Source: a virus. Taken from it: 28,385 nt of DNA. Below, in pieces: positions 16,755 to 26,662 of this stretch. Position 1 is the first letter of the stretch. Every line of letters begins with the position of its first letter. The stretch is taken from positions 1 through 28,385 of the IMG/VR virus record IMGVR_UViG_3300009135_000011, one strand, 5' to 3'. Under the pieces are notes generated by a model. It was not told where the DNA came from. It saw only the letters and a list, made by a program, of their open reading frames with translations, and searched no databases. The position numbers and the translations under genes are program-made.

Positions 16755-18250
16755 ATATAGCTGAACTATTCGCCCGTATCGGATTAAAGACAGACGAACA
16801 TAAGGCGAAAAGCTTCCACAGGGCAATGACCACCGTTAAAGTTGGCATGTTTGCCGCCACTGCAGCCGCCGCCGCAACATCACTTGCAATTAGAAAGATC
16901 ACCTCTGACGCAATGGCTGGAGCTGTAGCATTCAAGCAGTTTGAAGTTGAGACAGGGGCTAGTGCTCAACAGCTTCAAAAATGGCAGTCAGTCGCAGAAC
17001 AAACAAATCAATCAGCCGAATCCGTTTCATCAGCAATAAAAGCGATTGTCTCTAATCAAGAAAAGATAAGGCTTGGTCAAGGCGACATATCCGGTTATCA
17101 GTTACTCGGTATCGATCCCAGGCAAGACCCCTTTAAAATTCTTGAAGATCTGAGAGAGAAATCAAAAGGTCTTTCCGATGGAATGAAAAAGAATATTCTG
17201 TCTCAGATTGGTGTTGGTACTGGTCTTCTGCAAACCCTTAATCTTACCAGGGATGAATTTGACTCGATGGCTGATAGGGCATGGATCATTTCACCACAGG
17301 CAATCGAAACACTAAACAAGACAAAATCATCAGTTGATTTGGCTTCTCGTGCTATCAAATACATGAAAACGCAGATAGCAGTTGGGCTTTCACCTGAAAT
17401 CAGAAAGACAACAAAGGATATTCAAGAATTCTTGAAAGCCAATGAAAAAGGCATAATAAAAGGTTTTAAACTCGGTTATAAATATGTATCGATGTTTGTC
17501 GGTGCGATAACAAATGCAGCGTCAATGATCAATAGCCTGGTAAGAAGCACGGTTGGATGGGAAGCGGCAATCAAGGGATTGCTAGGTGTAATAATACTTA
17601 TGAATTCAGCTCTTCTTATTTCTCCTATCGGACTGATAGCTGCTGGTTTTATATTGCTGGTTGCCGTTTTGGATGATCTGTACGTATATTCAAAAGGTGG
17701 TAAATCTCTTTTTGGGGAGTTTATGAAAAGTTTCCCTGAATTGGAGAAATCTTTAAAAGGTTTCTTTTCTTCTTTGAAAGAGGCTTACAATCTTTACAAG
17801 GCTTTTTCCTCAAGTGATGAAATGTCCATTAAGAATATTTTAAAAGAATGGGGAGATCTCGGAAAATCAATATTGTTTGTCTATGAAAAATTAAAAGCTA
17901 TCGGAGATTTTACCAAAAATAATAATATAAAAACACCCGGAATTCTCGATTTTGTTCCTGGAGGGCGCTTTGCAGAGATCGGCCTAAAGTCCGGTGTTGA
18001 TTCGGGCATTATAAAAGAAATAAGAGGTATGTTTTCTGGAATCGGATTAAAATCAAGTTCTGATACTAACATTGTAAAAGCAATAAGTGATATGTTTTCT
18101 AAGATCACAAGCAAGGGCGTTACTCAAAATAATAATATTGACGTAAATATCAGCGGGTCAGGAGATCCGGTTTCAACAGGTGAGGCAGCCGCAAACTCAA
18201 TACAGCGGTCAATTAACGCCGCATCAGCTCAACTACCAAGAGATCAATAA
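16751..18250 (+). CDS. Tail tape measure protein
   Basis: 499 residues, ATGA overlap with the frameshifted chaperone. N-terminal helix region (AELFARIGLKTDEHKAKSFH, Ala-rich 35-48), a TGASAQQLQKWQSVAEQTN segment typical of tape measures, a hydrophobic stretch at about 274-307 (GLLGVIILMNSALLISPIG, then LIAAGFILLVAVL) that may insert into the host membrane, and a C-terminus NNNIDVNISGSGDPVSTG. Using the usual rule of about 0.15 nm per residue, the tail would be short, near 75 nm. Residues 410-430 and 431-451 are a tandem duplicate. No peptidase domain seen. Confidence 0.85.
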   Translation: MNIAELFARIGLKTDEHKAKSFHRAMTTVKVGMFAATAAAAATSLAIRKITSDAMAGAVAFKQFEVETGASAQQLQKWQSVAEQTNQSAESVSSAIKAIVSNQEKIRLGQGDISGYQLLGIDPRQDPFKILEDLREKSKGLSDGMKKNILSQIGVGTGLLQTLNLTRDEFDSMADRAWIISPQAIETLNKTKSSVDLASRAIKYMKTQIAVGLSPEIRKTTKDIQEFLKANEKGIIKGFKLGYKYVSMFVGAITNAASMINSLVRSTVGWEAAIKGLLGVIILMNSALLISPIGLIAAGFILLVAVLDDLYVYSKGGKSLFGEFMKSFPELEKSLKGFFSSLKEAYNLYKAFSSSDEMSIKNILKEWGDLGKSILFVYEKLKAIGDFTKNNNIKTPGILDFVPGGRFAEIGLKSGVDSGIIKEIRGMFSGIGLKSSSDTNIVKAISDMFSKITSKGVTQNNNIDVNISGSGDPVSTGEAAANSIQRSINAASAQLPRDQ

Positions 18251-19047
18251 TGAGTTTTGAGACAATAGTCCAATCAACTAATTCCGGGGTATCAAATGCA
18301 AGGTCATACCTTGATAATAAGGCCAACACCATTCTAAGGCCTAAAGAAAATTGGGGGATTGAGGGTTTTATTTTTGATGTACCTAGTAAGGAATCTCTAA
18401 ACATAACTTACGACATCACGGATCATTTCACTGAGTCTAATTCTTTTCTAAATGATCATAAAGTAAAAAAGCCCATCATAATCACATTAACCGGTTTCAT
18501 TGGTGAGCTGGTTTTCAGGTCTCCGGCTGGCGTGGAGGGTGCGGTTCAGGAAATATCAAACCGTCTTGAAGCTGTTGAGGCTTATACAGGAGATCTAACA
18601 CCAGGGGCAGTCCAAGAAGCACAAAGAGTAGTACAAAGAGCTCAGGCCGCTATATCAGCGATTAACCAGACACTCGACAAAGCACAGAATATTATAGGGT
18701 TTTTTGATGGAGATGGGCCGGAAGAAACGGCGCAGCAAAAGGCTTACAAGGATATTTCTGCTCTAGGAGATACAATTAAACTAGAAGTACAGACACCATG
18801 GGATTTTTTCAACGACATGACAATACAGTCAATTTCTGCAACCCAGGACAAAGAGACAAACCAGATAACAGATTTTTCAGTAACTCTAAAACAGATAAGA
18901 GTCTCAGATACAGAAACAGTTGATTTTGACAAAGACCAATTCCCAGTTAGAGAGAAAGTGCAGTCGGCTCCAGCAGAGGACCAAGGGAACATAAGAGGTC
19001 AGGATGAACTAATCTCCCTACCATTTAAGATTTTTGGGCGCAAATGA
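18250..19047 (+). CDS. Baseplate hub/Dit-like protein
   Basis: 265 residues. The N-terminal pattern GIEGFIFDVPSKESLNITYD, ITDHFTESNSFLNDHKVKK, PIIITLTGFIGELV is that of Dit-like baseplate domains: an acidic DH-type turn and a paired strand. The middle has a helical stretch (GAVQEAQRVVQRAQAAISAI) and the end a FSVTLKQIRVSDTETVD strand. Follows the tape measure, where the distal tail protein lies in many myoviruses. The next gene overlaps by 4 bases. Confidence 0.72.
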   Translation: MSFETIVQSTNSGVSNARSYLDNKANTILRPKENWGIEGFIFDVPSKESLNITYDITDHFTESNSFLNDHKVKKPIIITLTGFIGELVFRSPAGVEGAVQEISNRLEAVEAYTGDLTPGAVQEAQRVVQRAQAAISAINQTLDKAQNIIGFFDGDGPEETAQQKAYKDISALGDTIKLEVQTPWDFFNDMTIQSISATQDKETNQITDFSVTLKQIRVSDTETVDFDKDQFPVREKVQSAPAEDQGNIRGQDELISLPFKIFGRK

Positions 19048-19481
19048 AAAGGCTAGACGGAATAGCAGCAACAGGAGTTCAGGATCTAGCGACAACGGCA
19101 AGTAACGGGGATACTGTTTCAATGAAGCTGTATTATAGATCCGCTGTCCAGGCCTGGTTTATGGATATAACATGGAAAGAATTTATCCTCGAGGGGAACA
19201 GCGTTTTTTCTTCACCGAATTTACTTAGTCAATATGAAGCAATTATCCCTTTTGGAGTGGCAGTAATAACAGAAGGATCAGGAAATCCTTTCCTTATAAA
19301 TGATTTTTCATCTGGTAGGGCAAATATTTACATTCTTTCCCCGGAAGAAGTTGAACAGGTTCAGGAGTTTTATATTGAACAAGGCGAAATCACATTAACA
19401 ACCGAGCCAGGCGTTCAAGATGTAGTCGGGATTGATTCTGAAACCGGAATTTTAGTAAATGGACAATTAATAGGATTGTAA
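19044..19481 (+). CDS. Baseplate plug-like protein (DUF6983/Pam3 gp18-like)
   Basis: 145 residues, overlap of 4 bases upstream. The order VSMKLYYRSAVQAWFMDITW, then FILEGNSVFSSPNLLSQYE, FGVAVITEGSGNPFLINDF, YILSPEEVEQV is a small beta-barrel with conserved W-D/I pairs and the ...G..I..S.NLL..Y motif. I associate it with baseplate plug or hub components in small myoviruses. Assignment by that motif pattern and position between Dit-like and hub genes. Confidence 0.6.
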   Translation: MKRLDGIAATGVQDLATTASNGDTVSMKLYYRSAVQAWFMDITWKEFILEGNSVFSSPNLLSQYEAIIPFGVAVITEGSGNPFLINDFSSGRANIYILSPEEVEQVQEFYIEQGEITLTTEPGVQDVVGIDSETGILVNGQLIGL

Positions 19482-19483
19482 AA

Positions 19484-20650
19484 ATGGCTGACATAGATGT
19501 AATTGATTTTTTGGATATTGATCCACTAGATAGCATTTCAGAGGATGGAAGCTTGCTTGCTTCTAAGTCTGAAGCCGGTCCTATCGGTAGAATATCAATA
19601 GAAGAACTCAGAGATAGGCTACTCGGTGGGAATGTGAAAGCAGATATCTATAAACATGAATTTTTAACAGCTGAGACATGGGAAGCAGTCTCAGGGCTTT
19701 CAGGGAATGAAATAATCAAAACGGTTGTTGACTGTTCTGAAATGTTGCTAGGTGAAGTGATTGTTAAATACGGAGGGGTAACCAAAAAAACACTGGTCCC
19801 CGGAGATGTCGAAACTGTTATCAATAAAAGCACTGATATTGATATTGTGTCAAATAATACGGATTTTGATATCAGTAAGAGCACTTATGACAATAAATCA
19901 AAAGACGTTTCAGCCCAAGAATCTGCATTACAGGGATGCGACTTCAAGCCAGATGGCACAAAAATGTATGTTCTTGGGCAATCATCCGATGCCGTTTTCC
20001 AATATACATTATCTACACCATGGGATGTGTCTACGGCTAGTTATGATTCTATCTCGTTTTCGTTCAGCAACGGTACAGCTATTAGATTCAAGCCAGATGG
20101 AACAAAAATGTATATTCTTTCAGCAGCATCAGTTTATCAATATACATTATCTACACCATGGGATGTGTCTACGGCTGGGTCTCCGGTTTCTAAGTCTCTA
20201 ACTGCAGAAGGGAATGCTAATGCAGGTTTTTGTATTAGCAGTGATGGAACAAATATATATATTTGCGACTCTGCAAACGATAGAATAAACCAGTACTCAA
20301 TGACCGCATGGGATTTATCAACATTAGTATATGATACAGTGAATTTAAGCATAGCAGCACAAGATAATAATTGTACTGGTTTAGATGTAACATCGGATGG
20401 AAATACAATGTATCTTTCCGGTTTTCAGAATAACAAAGTATATCAATATGATTTATCAACAGCATGGGATTTATCAACAGCTAGTTACAGTACGCATTCG
20501 TATGCTCCATCAGAATTATCTTTATCTATCGATATCACGTTAAAAACAGACGACGATAAAATGTATCTATGTGATCAAGATGCCAATATTTATCAGTACT
20601 CAACATCTGGAGAATTTGCCGGGTCAGCATTCGCAATGGTGATAAAATAA
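19484..20650 (+). CDS. Fibre-like protein with five-bladed beta-propeller
   Basis: 388 residues. The N-terminus (IDPLDSISEDGSLLASKSE, IGRISIEELRDRLLG) looks like a fibre attachment segment, with a 55-110 adaptor region. From residue 151 five repeats of about 40-50 residues follow: FKPDGTKMYVLGQSSDAVFQ (blade 1), FKPDGTKMYILSAASVYQY (2), ISSDGTNIYICDSANDRINQ (3), VTSDGNTMYLSGFQNNKVYQ (4), KTDDDKMYLCDQDANIYQY (5), joined by WD(V/L)STASY. Blades 1 and 2 are nearly identical at DNA level. A surface-binding role is likely; a catalytic role is not excluded. Unusually it sits among core baseplate genes. Confidence 0.78.
   Translation: MADIDVIDFLDIDPLDSISEDGSLLASKSEAGPIGRISIEELRDRLLGGNVKADIYKHEFLTAETWEAVSGLSGNEIIKTVVDCSEMLLGEVIVKYGGVTKKTLVPGDVETVINKSTDIDIVSNNTDFDISKSTYDNKSKDVSAQESALQGCDFKPDGTKMYVLGQSSDAVFQYTLSTPWDVSTASYDSISFSFSNGTAIRFKPDGTKMYILSAASVYQYTLSTPWDVSTAGSPVSKSLTAEGNANAGFCISSDGTNIYICDSANDRINQYSMTAWDLSTLVYDTVNLSIAAQDNNCTGLDVTSDGNTMYLSGFQNNKVYQYDLSTAWDLSTASYSTHSYAPSELSLSIDITLKTDDDKMYLCDQDANIYQYSTSGEFAGSAFAMVIK
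20000..20176 (+). repeat. 39-bp perfect direct repeat within propeller gene
   Basis: The 39 bases at 20000-20038 recur exactly at 20138-20176, 138 bp apart (46 codons), encoding the QYTLSTPWDVSTA part of blades 1 and 2. A second near-exact repeat (the FKPDGTKMY part) starts at 19943 and 20087. These mark a recent duplication of one blade. Confidence 0.9.
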
Positions 20651-21501
20651 TGCAAGGTAAATTTGGAAGAACTTACAGTTTGGATGTATTTAATCCAGCA
20701 GGAAAGCAAATTACTATTAAGCCTCCATTTACCATTAAATTTGTTGTTAATAGGAATGTTTTGTCATCTGCCAATCGAGCATCAATAGAACTGATTAACC
20801 TTGGTCCTGCTACCAGGAACCAAATATACAAGGATCGATTTTCTATAACGGATTATTGGCAAGTTCAACTACAGGCAGGATACAATAACCGACTTCATGA
20901 AATATTTACCGGAAATATACACGAGGCTTTTTCAGTGAAAGAAAACACGGAATGGAAAACCAGCCTTGATTGCTTCGACGGAATGAACGCTATTCAGAAT
21001 GGTTTTACTTCGAGCACCGTTGAAAAGAATACTCCAAAAGAAAACATTATCAGACAAGTTGCAAATGACATGCAAAACCTAGTTGTGGGTGTTTTAGGTT
21101 CACCAGTAGAAGGGGAAAGCCCCAGGGGAAAATCACTAATTGGTCAATCATCAGACGTTCTGACGCAATTAGTGGATGGACAATGGTTTATTGATAAAGA
21201 AAAACTTAATATTCTTAGTAGCTCTGAAGTTTTACCCGGAGCCGTGATAAAACTTGATCCTGATGATCTTCTTTCAACGCCACGAAGGCGAGAGACTTTT
21301 TTAGATGTTGAAACGCTTTTCGAACCTCAAGTACAAGTTGGAAGAGTTTACGAAATAGAGAGCCTTGAACCGAGGTACAACGGTCAATACAAAATAGTGG
21401 GATTTAATCACAATGTTGAAATATCTGGCGCTTCTTCCGGTTCTGCAACAACAACCCTATCACTTTATTTTGGAGCAGATGGTCTTCAGGAGTCCGCTTA
21501 A
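20650..21501 (+). CDS. Baseplate hub protein (gp27/gpD-like)
   Basis: 283 residues, starting in the one-base overlap of the propeller gene. N-terminal barrel: YSLDVFNPAGKQITIKPPFT, IKFVVNRNVLSSANRASIEL. Then LQAGYNNRLHEIFTGNI, a helical insert PKENIIRQVANDMQNL and LSSSEVLPGAVIKLDPD, and the end GRVYEIESLEPRYNGQYKI with GFNHNVEISG. This matches the hub protein that forms the ring under the tube, upstream of its spike. Spike gene follows directly. Confidence 0.8.
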   Translation: MQGKFGRTYSLDVFNPAGKQITIKPPFTIKFVVNRNVLSSANRASIELINLGPATRNQIYKDRFSITDYWQVQLQAGYNNRLHEIFTGNIHEAFSVKENTEWKTSLDCFDGMNAIQNGFTSSTVEKNTPKENIIRQVANDMQNLVVGVLGSPVEGESPRGKSLIGQSSDVLTQLVDGQWFIDKEKLNILSSSEVLPGAVIKLDPDDLLSTPRRRETFLDVETLFEPQVQVGRVYEIESLEPRYNGQYKIVGFNHNVEISGASSGSATTTLSLYFGADGLQESA

Positions 21502-22124
21502 TGGAACAAACTATCATACCTCCAGATCTTGACGACTTGCTTGCAGAGAGCCGGAATGTTGTTTTTTCAAATTTTAATTGTGTTCAGGTTGGGGAGCTTC
21601 AGAAAGTCAATGATGATCAAACAGTAGAGATTAAGATTCAGTTTTTACGAAGAATATCTGAAGAAAAGACAGAAAAATATCCCTTGCTCGTTGATTGTCC
21701 CTATGTGGTTATTAGTGGTGGCGGTTCATTTTTAGATATGCCTATCAAAAAAGGCGACTACTGTATTGTTCTTTTTAATGATAGAAATATTGACGACTGG
21801 TGGGACACTGCCAATGTTGCGGTTCCATCCGATACAAGAAAGCATAGTATTTCTGACGGTTTTGCATTAGTTGGTATCAATCCAAAGACAAAAGCGTTTT
21901 CAAATGATGGTGAGTTTGTGCGACTTTTGGGGCTGTCAGGTCCAGGCTCAGAAGAATTTGTAGCACGTCTTGGGGATGAGGTAGTAGTCACTATTCCAGC
22001 AAATACTTTTGTTGTTTCTGTTTCAGGTGGTTCAGGTTCTCCAGCCGTTGGAACATTAAACCCAGATCCAATAGATGTTGAGGGGACGATTACTTCAGCA
22101 TCAGGAGAGGTAAAAATAGGATGA
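21501..22124 (+). CDS. Baseplate spike protein (Gp138 N-terminal-like)
   Basis: 207 residues. CVQVGELQKVNDDQTVEIKI, YPLLVDCPYVVISGGGSFL, MPIKKGDYCIVLFNDRNID, DWWDTANVAVPSD, KHSISDGFALVGINP fit the Gp138 N-terminal (OB-fold-like) domain. The C-terminal part (VTIPANTFVVSVSGGSGSP, VEGTITSASGEVKIG) looks like the start of a beta-helical needle. Together with the hub it pierces the outer membrane. Next gene overlaps by 4 bases. Confidence 0.88.
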   Translation: MEQTIIPPDLDDLLAESRNVVFSNFNCVQVGELQKVNDDQTVEIKIQFLRRISEEKTEKYPLLVDCPYVVISGGGSFLDMPIKKGDYCIVLFNDRNIDDWWDTANVAVPSDTRKHSISDGFALVGINPKTKAFSNDGEFVRLLGLSGPGSEEFVARLGDEVVVTIPANTFVVSVSGGSGSPAVGTLNPDPIDVEGTITSASGEVKIG

Positions 22125-22463: not shown

Positions 22464-23699
22464 ATGCCAAGTAATAATGATGTATTGTCGCTTGAGGGAC
22501 TAAAAGATTGCTACGTCATACAGCTTAACGAAAAGCGCGCGCTTGCTGTTAACTCCGGCGGGGTACCGCTGGATGTCCACATAAGGCAGGCTGTCACAGC
22601 ATTTAACGAGGTTGCCGTTTCTGAATTTAAGCCCCAAACAGGTTGGTCGTTTTCGTACAATATAAATGAGCAGATGGCTCATTTCATAACTGAAAACGGT
22701 GGCAGTGTTACTCATGACAACGTATACGCCAAATGCGATACAGGTATTGACCCAAATGGGTCTGCTATTATCAGGACAAACAGACCGCTTGCTTACACTC
22801 CTGGCCGTGGCGCAAGAACTATATTTACAACTCTTTTTAGTCCTCCCAAGTCAGAAAGTAATCAACTGCAGGGTGTTTTTAACGATGCGGATGGATGGGC
22901 CTTTGGATATCAAGGTGAAATATTTGGCGTATTGAGGCGTAGGAGTGGTATTGATTATTTTATACCACAGTCAGAATGGAATATTGATAAAAGACCAGAC
23001 CTAGATCCAACAAAAGGAAATGTCTATGCAATAGATTTTCAATGGTTAGGTTTTGGTGCTCAGTATTTTTCAATTGAAGATAAAGATGGTAAATTATCTG
23101 CGGTACATATTATTGTATACGCCAATACTCACGAGCACGTATCTGTGGAAAACGCATCACTCCCTTTGTCGGCTTTTGTTGAAAATACGGGAAATACGTC
23201 AAGTATAATTATAAGGACACCTTCGGCCGTTGGTGGCTTGTATGGGATACCATATGATCCAGCTTTTGAGGCTATTGTTTCATATGATTTTAGGCTATCT
23301 GTGGTTGCAGGTGAAACATATCTCTTTTCATTTATGAACCCAAAAGTATGGCTCGGTAAAGATAACAGATTATACGTTTTACCGAGAATACTTGCTGTTG
23401 CATCGGAGGGGAATAAACCTGTAACATTTAGGGTTTATTCTCGACCAACAATTTTAAATCCAATATGGCAGGATGTGGAAACAGGAGTATCGCCGCTGCA
23501 ATACGATGAAGAAGGAACTTTGGTTATGAACGGAGAAACCAAAGTTTTGACTCTTCCAGTGGCAAAATCAGACAGCAAGGAAATCGATTTAAGCATTATT
23601 GATGCCTATATACTTCCTGATCAAACACTGGCTTTGACTGTTGACGCTGACAGTTTATCTGATGTTAGGGTCGGAGTTACATTTAAGTCTAGAACATAG
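22464..23699 (+). CDS. Beta-rich virion protein of unknown role
   Basis: 411 residues. The centre shows an arrangement I recognise from virion proteins of many unrelated tailed phages: GSAIIRTNRPLAYTPGRGA, QGVFNDADGWAFGYQGEIF, GVLRRRSGIDYFIPQSEWN, IDFQWLGFGAQYFSIED, VHIIVYANTHEHVSVENA, PLSAFVENTGNTSS. This would be a concanavalin-like beta sandwich. The C-terminal part (KEIDLSIIDAYILPDQTLAL) is another beta domain. It is inserted between gp25-like and gpJ-like genes, so it may be a baseplate decoration or adhesin. Function unknown. Confidence 0.6.
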   Translation: MPSNNDVLSLEGLKDCYVIQLNEKRALAVNSGGVPLDVHIRQAVTAFNEVAVSEFKPQTGWSFSYNINEQMAHFITENGGSVTHDNVYAKCDTGIDPNGSAIIRTNRPLAYTPGRGARTIFTTLFSPPKSESNQLQGVFNDADGWAFGYQGEIFGVLRRRSGIDYFIPQSEWNIDKRPDLDPTKGNVYAIDFQWLGFGAQYFSIEDKDGKLSAVHIIVYANTHEHVSVENASLPLSAFVENTGNTSSIIIRTPSAVGGLYGIPYDPAFEAIVSYDFRLSVVAGETYLFSFMNPKVWLGKDNRLYVLPRILAVASEGNKPVTFRVYSRPTILNPIWQDVETGVSPLQYDEEGTLVMNGETKVLTLPVAKSDSKEIDLSIIDAYILPDQTLALTVDADSLSDVRVGVTFKSRT

Positions 23700-25750: not shown

Positions 25751-26662
25751 ATGTCACTTCTGACAAGAATAGCACAAAAGATATTTGGAACAACAGGTAC
25801 TTCTAGTGAGTTTTCTCAGATTGGATCAAAGAGGGCTGGTGCTCCTGTTAAGACAAAAGATCTTGAATTAATGCAAACTCTCGCTCAATATGCCGCTGGA
25901 CTAAATGCGATTGTATCAGATCAAGGGACTAGTGTTTTGCCGTATCTTGAAGATCTAAATTCATTGTTTTACCTCATTACTTCTCAGTTAGCCTACCTGA
26001 TGCAATCCGGGATTCCAGAATGGAACGATGAGACAGAATACTATCAAGGGGTTTCACTTGTTCTTTATGACGGTGAAATTTTGATTGATCTTTACGGAAC
26101 TCCTGGAACTCCAAACTTGAATTTTGAGCCGGACACTAATCCATTAAAATGGAAAATCCTTTCATCCGACTACCTATTTAAAGCCCAAAACCTTGCTGAT
26201 CTACCAAACGCATCAACTGCAAGGTCTAACTTGGATGTTTATTCAGAAGCGGAATCGGATAGTGGGGGGCAAGTATTCACAAATAAAAGCCTATCAGGTG
26301 ATAGTAATACAATTACTGAAGTTGCAAGCATCAAAGACCAAGGAGGAATTGCCGCTTCTGGATTAAAATGCAAGGTTATCGCTATAGGTGATTGGGACAT
26401 GAATGCTACTGCTAATATAAGTATCCCACATGGTCTTATTGATACCAGTATCAGAGGTATTATTTGCACAATAAGGGACGATTTAAACATTGCTTATTAT
26501 GATTTTGCTCAGGTTCGTGCCTCTGACAATGGTACTGGAGGAGTAAATACAGCCATCGGAAACGTACTATTAAATCGCACACCAAGCGGGGCTTTTGATA
26601 GTGCAAATTTTAGCTCTACTTCTTATAATCGTGGATGGGTAACAATTTGGTATGAGGCTTAA
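25751..26662 (+). CDS. Tail fibre protein
   Basis: 303 residues, AAGGG upstream of the ATG. N-terminal half: SEFSQIGSKRAGAPVKTKDL, ELMQTLAQYAAGLNAIV and EWNDETEYYQGVSLVLYDG, YGTPGTPNLNFEPDTNPLKW, a known short fibre adaptor pattern. Middle: NLADLPNASTARSNLDVYSE, the repeated phrase used in tail fibres and their trimer shaft. C-terminus (SIPHGLIDTSIRGIICTIRD, to GWVTIWYEA) is a beta-rich knob that likely contacts the receptor. No separate fibre chaperone seen in the window. Confidence 0.82.
   Translation: MSLLTRIAQKIFGTTGTSSEFSQIGSKRAGAPVKTKDLELMQTLAQYAAGLNAIVSDQGTSVLPYLEDLNSLFYLITSQLAYLMQSGIPEWNDETEYYQGVSLVLYDGEILIDLYGTPGTPNLNFEPDTNPLKWKILSSDYLFKAQNLADLPNASTARSNLDVYSEAESDSGGQVFTNKSLSGDSNTITEVASIKDQGGIAASGLKCKVIAIGDWDMNATANISIPHGLIDTSIRGIICTIRDDLNIAYYDFAQVRASDNGTGGVNTAIGNVLLNRTPSGAFDSANFSSTSYNRGWVTIWYEA

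Follow-up and report, generated by a model that had tools for sequence, protein, structure and literature searches.

A stretch of 28,385 bases (the window; IMG/VR virus record IMGVR_UViG_3300009135_000011, one metagenomic contig) carries a gene for a predicted beta-propeller between the plug-like and hub genes of a baseplate cluster. We consider it fairly probable that a small contractile-tail phage gained this accessory gene by insertion at its plug–hub junction, that the product is a closed five-bladed propeller and most likely a baseplate-borne host-binding head, and that the blade identity arose by intragenic exchange. More broadly, and as a tentative possibility, the five-bladed propeller adhesins of environmental phages may diversify by intragenic exchange of blades, with the ring fixing the count at five and whole rings gained or lost as units, one ring having moved into the baseplate cluster of the window. 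If this is true, a large family with near-fixed blade number, frequent blade-to-blade identity and ring-level copies offers a simple and testable model for the evolution of tail adhesins under geometric constraint.

Table 1. Features of the window around the plug–hub junction (positions in the window; residues are those of the propeller protein)
Feature	Position	Strand	Basis
Dit-like baseplate gene	18250..19047	+	PF21821
Plug-like gene, 145 aa	19044..19481	+	PF22479 Pam3_gp18, 27.5 bits, cut-off 24.2
Segment missing from relatives: plug C-terminal extension and propeller gene, 1276 bp	19374..20649	+	Junction alignments
Five-bladed beta-propeller gene, 388 aa	19484..20650	+	ORF, AlphaFold2 model, family relatives
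N-terminal part, residues 1-127, no relatives found, fold not confidently predicted	19484..19864	+	Profile and sequence searches, AlphaFold2
Closing strand, residues 134-141, completes blade 5	19883..19906	+	DSSP of model; presumed role from strand order
Blade 1, residues 149-193	19928..20062	+	AlphaFold2 model
33-nt repeat, copy 1, residues 154-164	19943..19975	+	Repeat search
39-nt exact repeat, copy 1, QYTLSTPWDVSTA, residues 173-185	20000..20038	+	Repeat search
Blade 2, residues 197-238	20072..20197	+	AlphaFold2 model
33-nt repeat, copy 2, 94%, residues 202-212	20087..20119	+	Repeat search
39-nt exact repeat, copy 2, residues 219-231	20138..20176	+	Repeat search
Blade 3, residues 246-289	20219..20350	+	AlphaFold2 model
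Blade 4, residues 297-340	20372..20503	+	AlphaFold2 model
Blade 5, strands A-C, residues 348-373	20525..20602	+	AlphaFold2 model
Baseplate hub gene	20650..21501	+	PF22759 E217_GP41, 57.3 bits, cut-off 27; phrog_196
Tail-fibre gene, end of cluster	25751..26662	+	PHROG fibre families

The junction between plug and hub, and a probable role

Pfam and PHROG matches place the propeller gene where a preliminary description of this DNA had it, within the baseplate gene cluster, between the plug-like and hub genes and apart from the tail fibre; the open reading frame itself was also recovered as described. The gene starts 2 nt past the plug stop, and its own stop shares 1 nt with the hub start. The plug is 145 aa long in the window versus 116-117 aa in the four close relatives with a complete plug gene. 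The Pfam families matched by plug and hub are named for the baseplates of cyanophage Pam3 and phage E217.

We compared 13 related junctions, namely those of L082-L085, L101, L092 and seven named phages of the 101 phage records with a hub relative at E 1e-10. L098, L099 and L100 stem from the contigs of L085, L083 and L082 and were not recounted; L102, which stops before the junction, was uncounted, and L086, whose match starts 16 bases from the locus start, was left out. In L082 and L083, whose hubs are 76% and 72% identical to that of the window, the plug gene encodes 117 aa and runs 11 nt into the hub gene. Alignment of their DNA to the window stops at 19373 (L082) or 19374 (L083) and restarts at 20650, so that 13 nt in L082 and 12 nt in L083 take the place of the approximately 1276-bp window segment. 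The same 11-nt overlap is seen in L101 and in L084, where the plug is cut at its 5' end; plug and hub abut in L085 and are 2 nt apart in L092. Plug and hub also overlap in Bdellovibrio phage phi1422, Vibrio phages 1.052.A and VBM1 and Psychrobacter phage pOW20-A. The presumed plug of Haemophilus phage Aaphi23 lies 286 nt from the hub, and in Salmonella phage vB_SE1_KM and Proteus phage vB_PmiM_ZX7 about 310 nt, with at most one small annotated gene inside, separate the preceding gene from the hub; the plug is probably unannotated in these two phages.

Unlike the window, none of the 13 related junctions (Pam3 and E217 themselves lie outside this set) has a propeller between plug and hub, and none has space for a 1.2-kb gene. 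Given this, and because plug and hub overlap in four and abut in one of the five closest relatives, we interpret the propeller as an insertion in the window. The clean presence/absence at the plug–hub junction marks it as a site where a small contractile baseplate can accommodate an additional gene. No other record with a propeller inserted between plug and hub was found among the matches listed, and the plasmid collection gave no match at E 1e-10. The only hub relative in the genome-collection scan, L092, is in the bin of an uncultured bacterium and thus provides no named host. Base composition did not identify the insert as foreign DNA: its GC content is 0.375 versus 0.389 for the window, and 27% of stretches of the same size have a value as low or lower.

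Our best guess for the putative function of the protein is host binding, because family members elsewhere have tail-fibre neighbours, because a partial family match falls within a phage gene annotated as a wedge protein and because there is a precedent in a characterised receptor-binding protein. Among 91 immediate-neighbour proteins from 62 family loci on other contigs, tail assembly chaperone PF16778 was found in 17 (the other 74 had no PF16778 match), DUF7483 in 8, the Mtd N-terminal domain and Laminin_G_3 in 4 each and capsid protein PF19821 in 3. The commonest neighbour PHROGs among the 25 of 194 families listed were tail fibre assembly and tail fibre families, with 17/91 each, and gp51 of Lentibacter phage vB_LenP_ICBM2 is flanked by two genes annotated as tail fibre assembly. 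In Synechococcus phage S-SCSM2R, a gene with the annotation baseplate wedge protein 53 contains a match to residues 141-294 at 29.9% identity. The precedent is Gp45 of Staphylococcus phage phi11, which the available part of its description presents as a baseplate receptor-binding protein with five-bladed propellers (PMC4901313). The PHROG scan of ten window proteins detected no fibre chaperone. The propeller protein, as an accessory gene product, would give the baseplate an additional host-binding head that recognises a surface glycan or another receptor. It would be present in the virion, attached perhaps through residues 1-125 or through the lengthened plug.

Alternatively, the protein may be a structural part of the baseplate, such as a spacer or stabiliser, that binds tail proteins instead of the host. 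We find this unlikely. In its favour, core baseplate genes surround the propeller gene, the junction also has a lengthened plug gene and a partial family match occurs within the gene annotated as wedge protein 53. Against it, close relatives have the same cluster without a propeller, indicating that such a baseplate can do without it, and on other contigs the named neighbours of family members are most often the tail-fibre assembly proteins counted above (17/91).

The predicted ring and its N-terminal part

The host-binding head that we favour would be built on a ring predicted by AlphaFold2. The model was made with a 48-row family alignment (the window and 47 of 48 selected single-ring relatives), the rows of which were picked as single-ring relatives with six blade-profile hits, so that model and five-blade count are not separate lines of evidence. 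It has a mean pLDDT of 78.6 and a pTM of 0.69, with pLDDT of 91-99 in ten-residue blocks from residue 131 to 370; a single-sequence prediction (mean pLDDT 33.7) was set aside. According to DSSP, the predicted strands are 134-141 and 19 others, that is, five times four. By the strand order of the model, radial four-stranded blades would close into a ring, as expected for a beta-propeller fold. The preliminary description had named structure prediction as a check on ring closure, and it yielded a five-bladed ring and no open solenoid; the five blades that had been described are also the number on which blade-profile counts and model agree. From the strand order and the alignment to PDB entry 3qqz we infer a closed ring in which the first strand would complete the last blade.

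VIA-align superimposed residues 129-374 onto 3qqz, the YjiK C-terminal domain of 243 residues (Z 22.4, rmsd 2.8, 224 aligned). The rows below it were mostly NHL and designed Pizza6 propellers, and thus the structure search backs the fold and does not fix the blade number. Foldseek matches in the PDB were loose, with TM of 0.29-0.42 by query among the 50 rows listed.

The N-terminal part is the exception to an observation that was otherwise confirmed. It had been called fibre-type, yet for residues 1-125 neither PHROGs nor Pfam gave a listed match up to E 10, the viral-contig scan showed no relative and the AlphaFold2 model is of low confidence; against the phage records these residues gave three matches, at E 6-9 only. 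A recognised attachment domain is absent from this part in the PHROG and Pfam searches.

Comparison with known systems places the protein in a five-bladed family like ICBM2 gp51, a grouping made here on the basis of whole-propeller similarity and five blade starts. The window protein is 42.8% identical to gp51 over residues 128-374, and an ICBM2 protein of the length of gp51 is predicted to fold in the same way, with an rmsd of 1.1 across 258 alignment columns. The settings differ, as ICBM2 belongs to the Zobellviridae and its gene lies between tail fibre assembly genes, whereas the window gene lies between plug and hub in the baseplate cluster of a contractile tail. Like the window prediction, phi11 Gp45 is a baseplate protein with a five-bladed propeller closed by an N-terminal strand. 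It also has a coiled-coil stem and a C-terminal tower, at least in the portion of the paper at hand (PMC4901313); neither was seen in the window protein, whose N-terminal model is of low confidence. Gp45 was not among the sequence matches listed for the window propeller, and the propellers of phi11 Gp45, PRD1 P2 and phiKZ gp131 were not among the matches listed in the fold searches (50 rows each).

An enzymatic role, in which the baseplate would carry a depolymerase resembling a lactonase or glycosidase, appears improbable. The SMP-30/gluconolactonase family (Pfam SGL) matches the window protein weakly, at 1e-5 and 25.7 bits, slightly under the gathering cut-off of 26.3, and at E 0.001 SGL is matched by 45 and Lactonase by 32 of 48 family members; however, the best solved match of the family profile is the surface-layer protein 1l0q (2.8e-19), with lactonase-like chains at 0.0014 and above, and each blade has the conserved positions in its AB and CD turns, a pattern that looks structural.

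Blade number and a proposed exchange of DNA between blades

The 39-bp perfect repeat that had been noted between blades 1 and 2, at an offset of 138, was found again. It is the exact core of a 45-nt direct repeat at 96% (19994-20038 and 20132-20176). The second, near-perfect repeat is also present, with 33 nt at 94% and an offset of 144. As the offsets differ by 6 nt, an indel separates the two repeat blocks. Synonymous codons were shuffled 300 times with protein and codon usage preserved; the longest exact repeat in frame then had a mean of 13.1 nt and a maximum of 29 nt, versus 39 nt in the window gene. Thus, shared amino acids alone are insufficient to account for the repeat.

Similar tracts are frequent in the family. 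After near-identical reading frames were merged, 49 of 105 distinct propeller genes surpassed each of their own 50 shuffles in the length of the longest exact in-frame repeat, where about two would be expected by chance, and 56 did not; repeats of 39 nt or more occur in 26 of the 105, window gene included. When the blades of related pairs were compared, 106 of 373 proved closer to a blade at a different position than to their positional counterpart, the margin in DNA identity exceeding 5 points; this count was made without a null control and is inflated by near-duplicate loci. It omits pairs above 99.5% identity, with a length gap of 80 aa or more or with unequal full-blade counts. Several close pairs, one of them at 89.7% identity, have no off-position match. 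The repeats and the off-position matches fit exchange between blades, whether by gene conversion or by duplication with compensating loss. This supports the recent duplication or gene conversion that had been proposed for blades 1 and 2, and we suggest that intragenic DNA exchange between blades best explains their identity.

The propeller family is large: tblastn found relatives in 20 phage records at E 0.001, and at least 591 of 598 candidate stretches of viral contigs encode one. Blade number was studied in the best 80 of these at least 591 loci, which were chosen with a five-bladed query and may favour five. After removal of 22 reading frames truncated at contig ends and of 18 duplicates, 98 complete distinct ORFs remained, of which 54 have five blade starts, 37 have ten and one has fifteen (92/98). 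The other six have 4, 6, 8, 9, 14 and 14, four of them unexplained. In the ORF with nine, the last blade falls one column below the threshold, and loosening by one column leaves no nine; the ORF with eight (L008) aligns with one of ten blades in L010 at 100% identity across 515 aa. The propeller of L042 has five blade starts.

Related genes differ in the same unit. Many family pairs are copies from different samples, so that the following pair counts are not independent. At 80% identity or more, counts are equal in 63 of 67 pairs, the others being 10/5, 5/10, 5/10 and 8/10. Between 70 and 80%, three of six are equal, two differ by five and one by nine, and between 60 and 70% counts are equal in 106 of 174, with 61 of the remaining 68 differing by five or ten. 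L002 and L004 share 97.6% identity in the two flanks of a site at which L004 has 823 nt, a second ring, versus 16 nt in L002. The unit that differs between family genes is mostly the ring. One whole five-blade ring differs within the same gene between L002 (3379-3396) and L004 (6684-7508). Six contigs (L017, L020, L022, L031, L033 and L043) each carry three or four consecutive propeller genes, of one or two rings each.

The preliminary description had further suggested that the repeat is a way to change blade number, with unequal exchange adding or removing single blades and so altering the binding surface. We judge this very unlikely. Exact repeats between blades reach 160 nt in the family and could serve as substrate, and the six ORFs with other counts, four of them unexplained, could be its products. 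Counter to this, 92 of the 98 ORFs hold five, ten or fifteen blade starts, counts agree in 63 of 67 close (non-independent) pairs and, where they do differ between related genes, mostly do so by five or ten, and the L002/L004 difference is a whole ring. Relatives with the same repeat number, which had been named in advance as speaking against the suggestion, are seen at the family level; no relative with a propeller at the same site was found. In the reading that we prefer, blades would exchange DNA inside the gene while ring closure would hold the count at five, and copy-number differences in the family would mostly be whole rings.

The position of the repeats bears on binding as well. The BC and DA loops share one face of a propeller. 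Column entropies from 633 representative blades, with means computed by hand from the column table, gave 2.98 bits for the BC loop (columns 15-18) and 2.42 bits for the DA loop (columns 44-49; 2.05 over 43-51, with gaps of 43% and 77% at columns 50 and 51), against 1.35 bits for the AB loop (columns 4-8) and 1.40 bits for the CD loop (columns 26-33). Columns 2, 13 and 19, in or beside strands, also exceed 3 bits. This comparison is within one propeller family, and one-sided loop variability may be a general propeller property. If the protein does bind a host ligand, the face of the BC and DA loops would be the candidate surface. The repeated blocks, residues 154-164/202-212 and 173-185/219-231, cover the AB and CD turns together with strands A-B and C. 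Outside these blocks lie the BC and DA loops, in which blades 1 and 2 are not alike. Thus, the copied DNA encodes the more conserved face, and a role of the repeat in changing the binding surface, also proposed earlier, is not upheld. The earlier interpretation is therefore partly supported: the propeller in the baseplate cluster and the duplication or conversion of blades 1 and 2 hold up, and the parts on blade number and binding surface are not supported.

Some of this was already known from other proteins. Recent blade amplification has been described for highly repetitive beta-propellers (PMC9218822), which resemble the window gene in having blades that are near-identical in protein and DNA. 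The available part of that work reports diverse blade numbers, in contrast to the window's family, where the number of blade starts is, with few exceptions, divisible by five; the word 'phage' is absent from its main text. Propeller heads are likewise known in phage receptor-binding proteins, from few solved cases according to the accessible sections of the phi11 paper (PMC4901313). Beta-propeller lectins are reported in some fibres in a catalogue of extracellular injection system receptor-binding domains, as far as its available part goes (PMC12923769). The word 'propeller' is absent from the main text of the ICBM2 paper (PMC6775973) and of the CRP-9/CRP-13 paper (PMC8528129). Among the titles and abstracts listed from the open-licence literature, we found none describing the phage propeller family, with its near-fixed five-blade count and its differences by whole rings, or a plug–hub junction that holds a propeller.

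The contig and other variation in its baseplate cluster

That the junction is an assembly chimera is hardly credible: the window is one metagenomic contig and no second record with the insertion occurs among the matches listed, but packing is tight at both joins (a 2-nt gap and a 1-nt overlap) and the insert is close to the window in GC content, as given above.

The cluster varies at other points. A second variable slot lies between the phrog_120 wedge gene that follows the spike and the baseplate J-like wedge gene. It holds a 411-aa phrog_1645 protein in the window (22464-23699), a 488-aa ORF in L082 (8006-9472) and a 273-aa ORF in L085 (5826-6647), and no ORF is listed there in L083 (7992-8002) or L084 (2062-2381). 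The spike occurs in two types, one of 207-212 aa with an EVKIG end in the window (21501-22124), L084 (1086-1724) and L085 (4849-5484), and one of 268 aa with a different C-terminus in L082 (6852-7658) and L083 (6848-7654). Finally, the hub gene of L083 (6001-6848) gives a full-length match, yet its ORF stops after 238 aa, an apparent frameshift.
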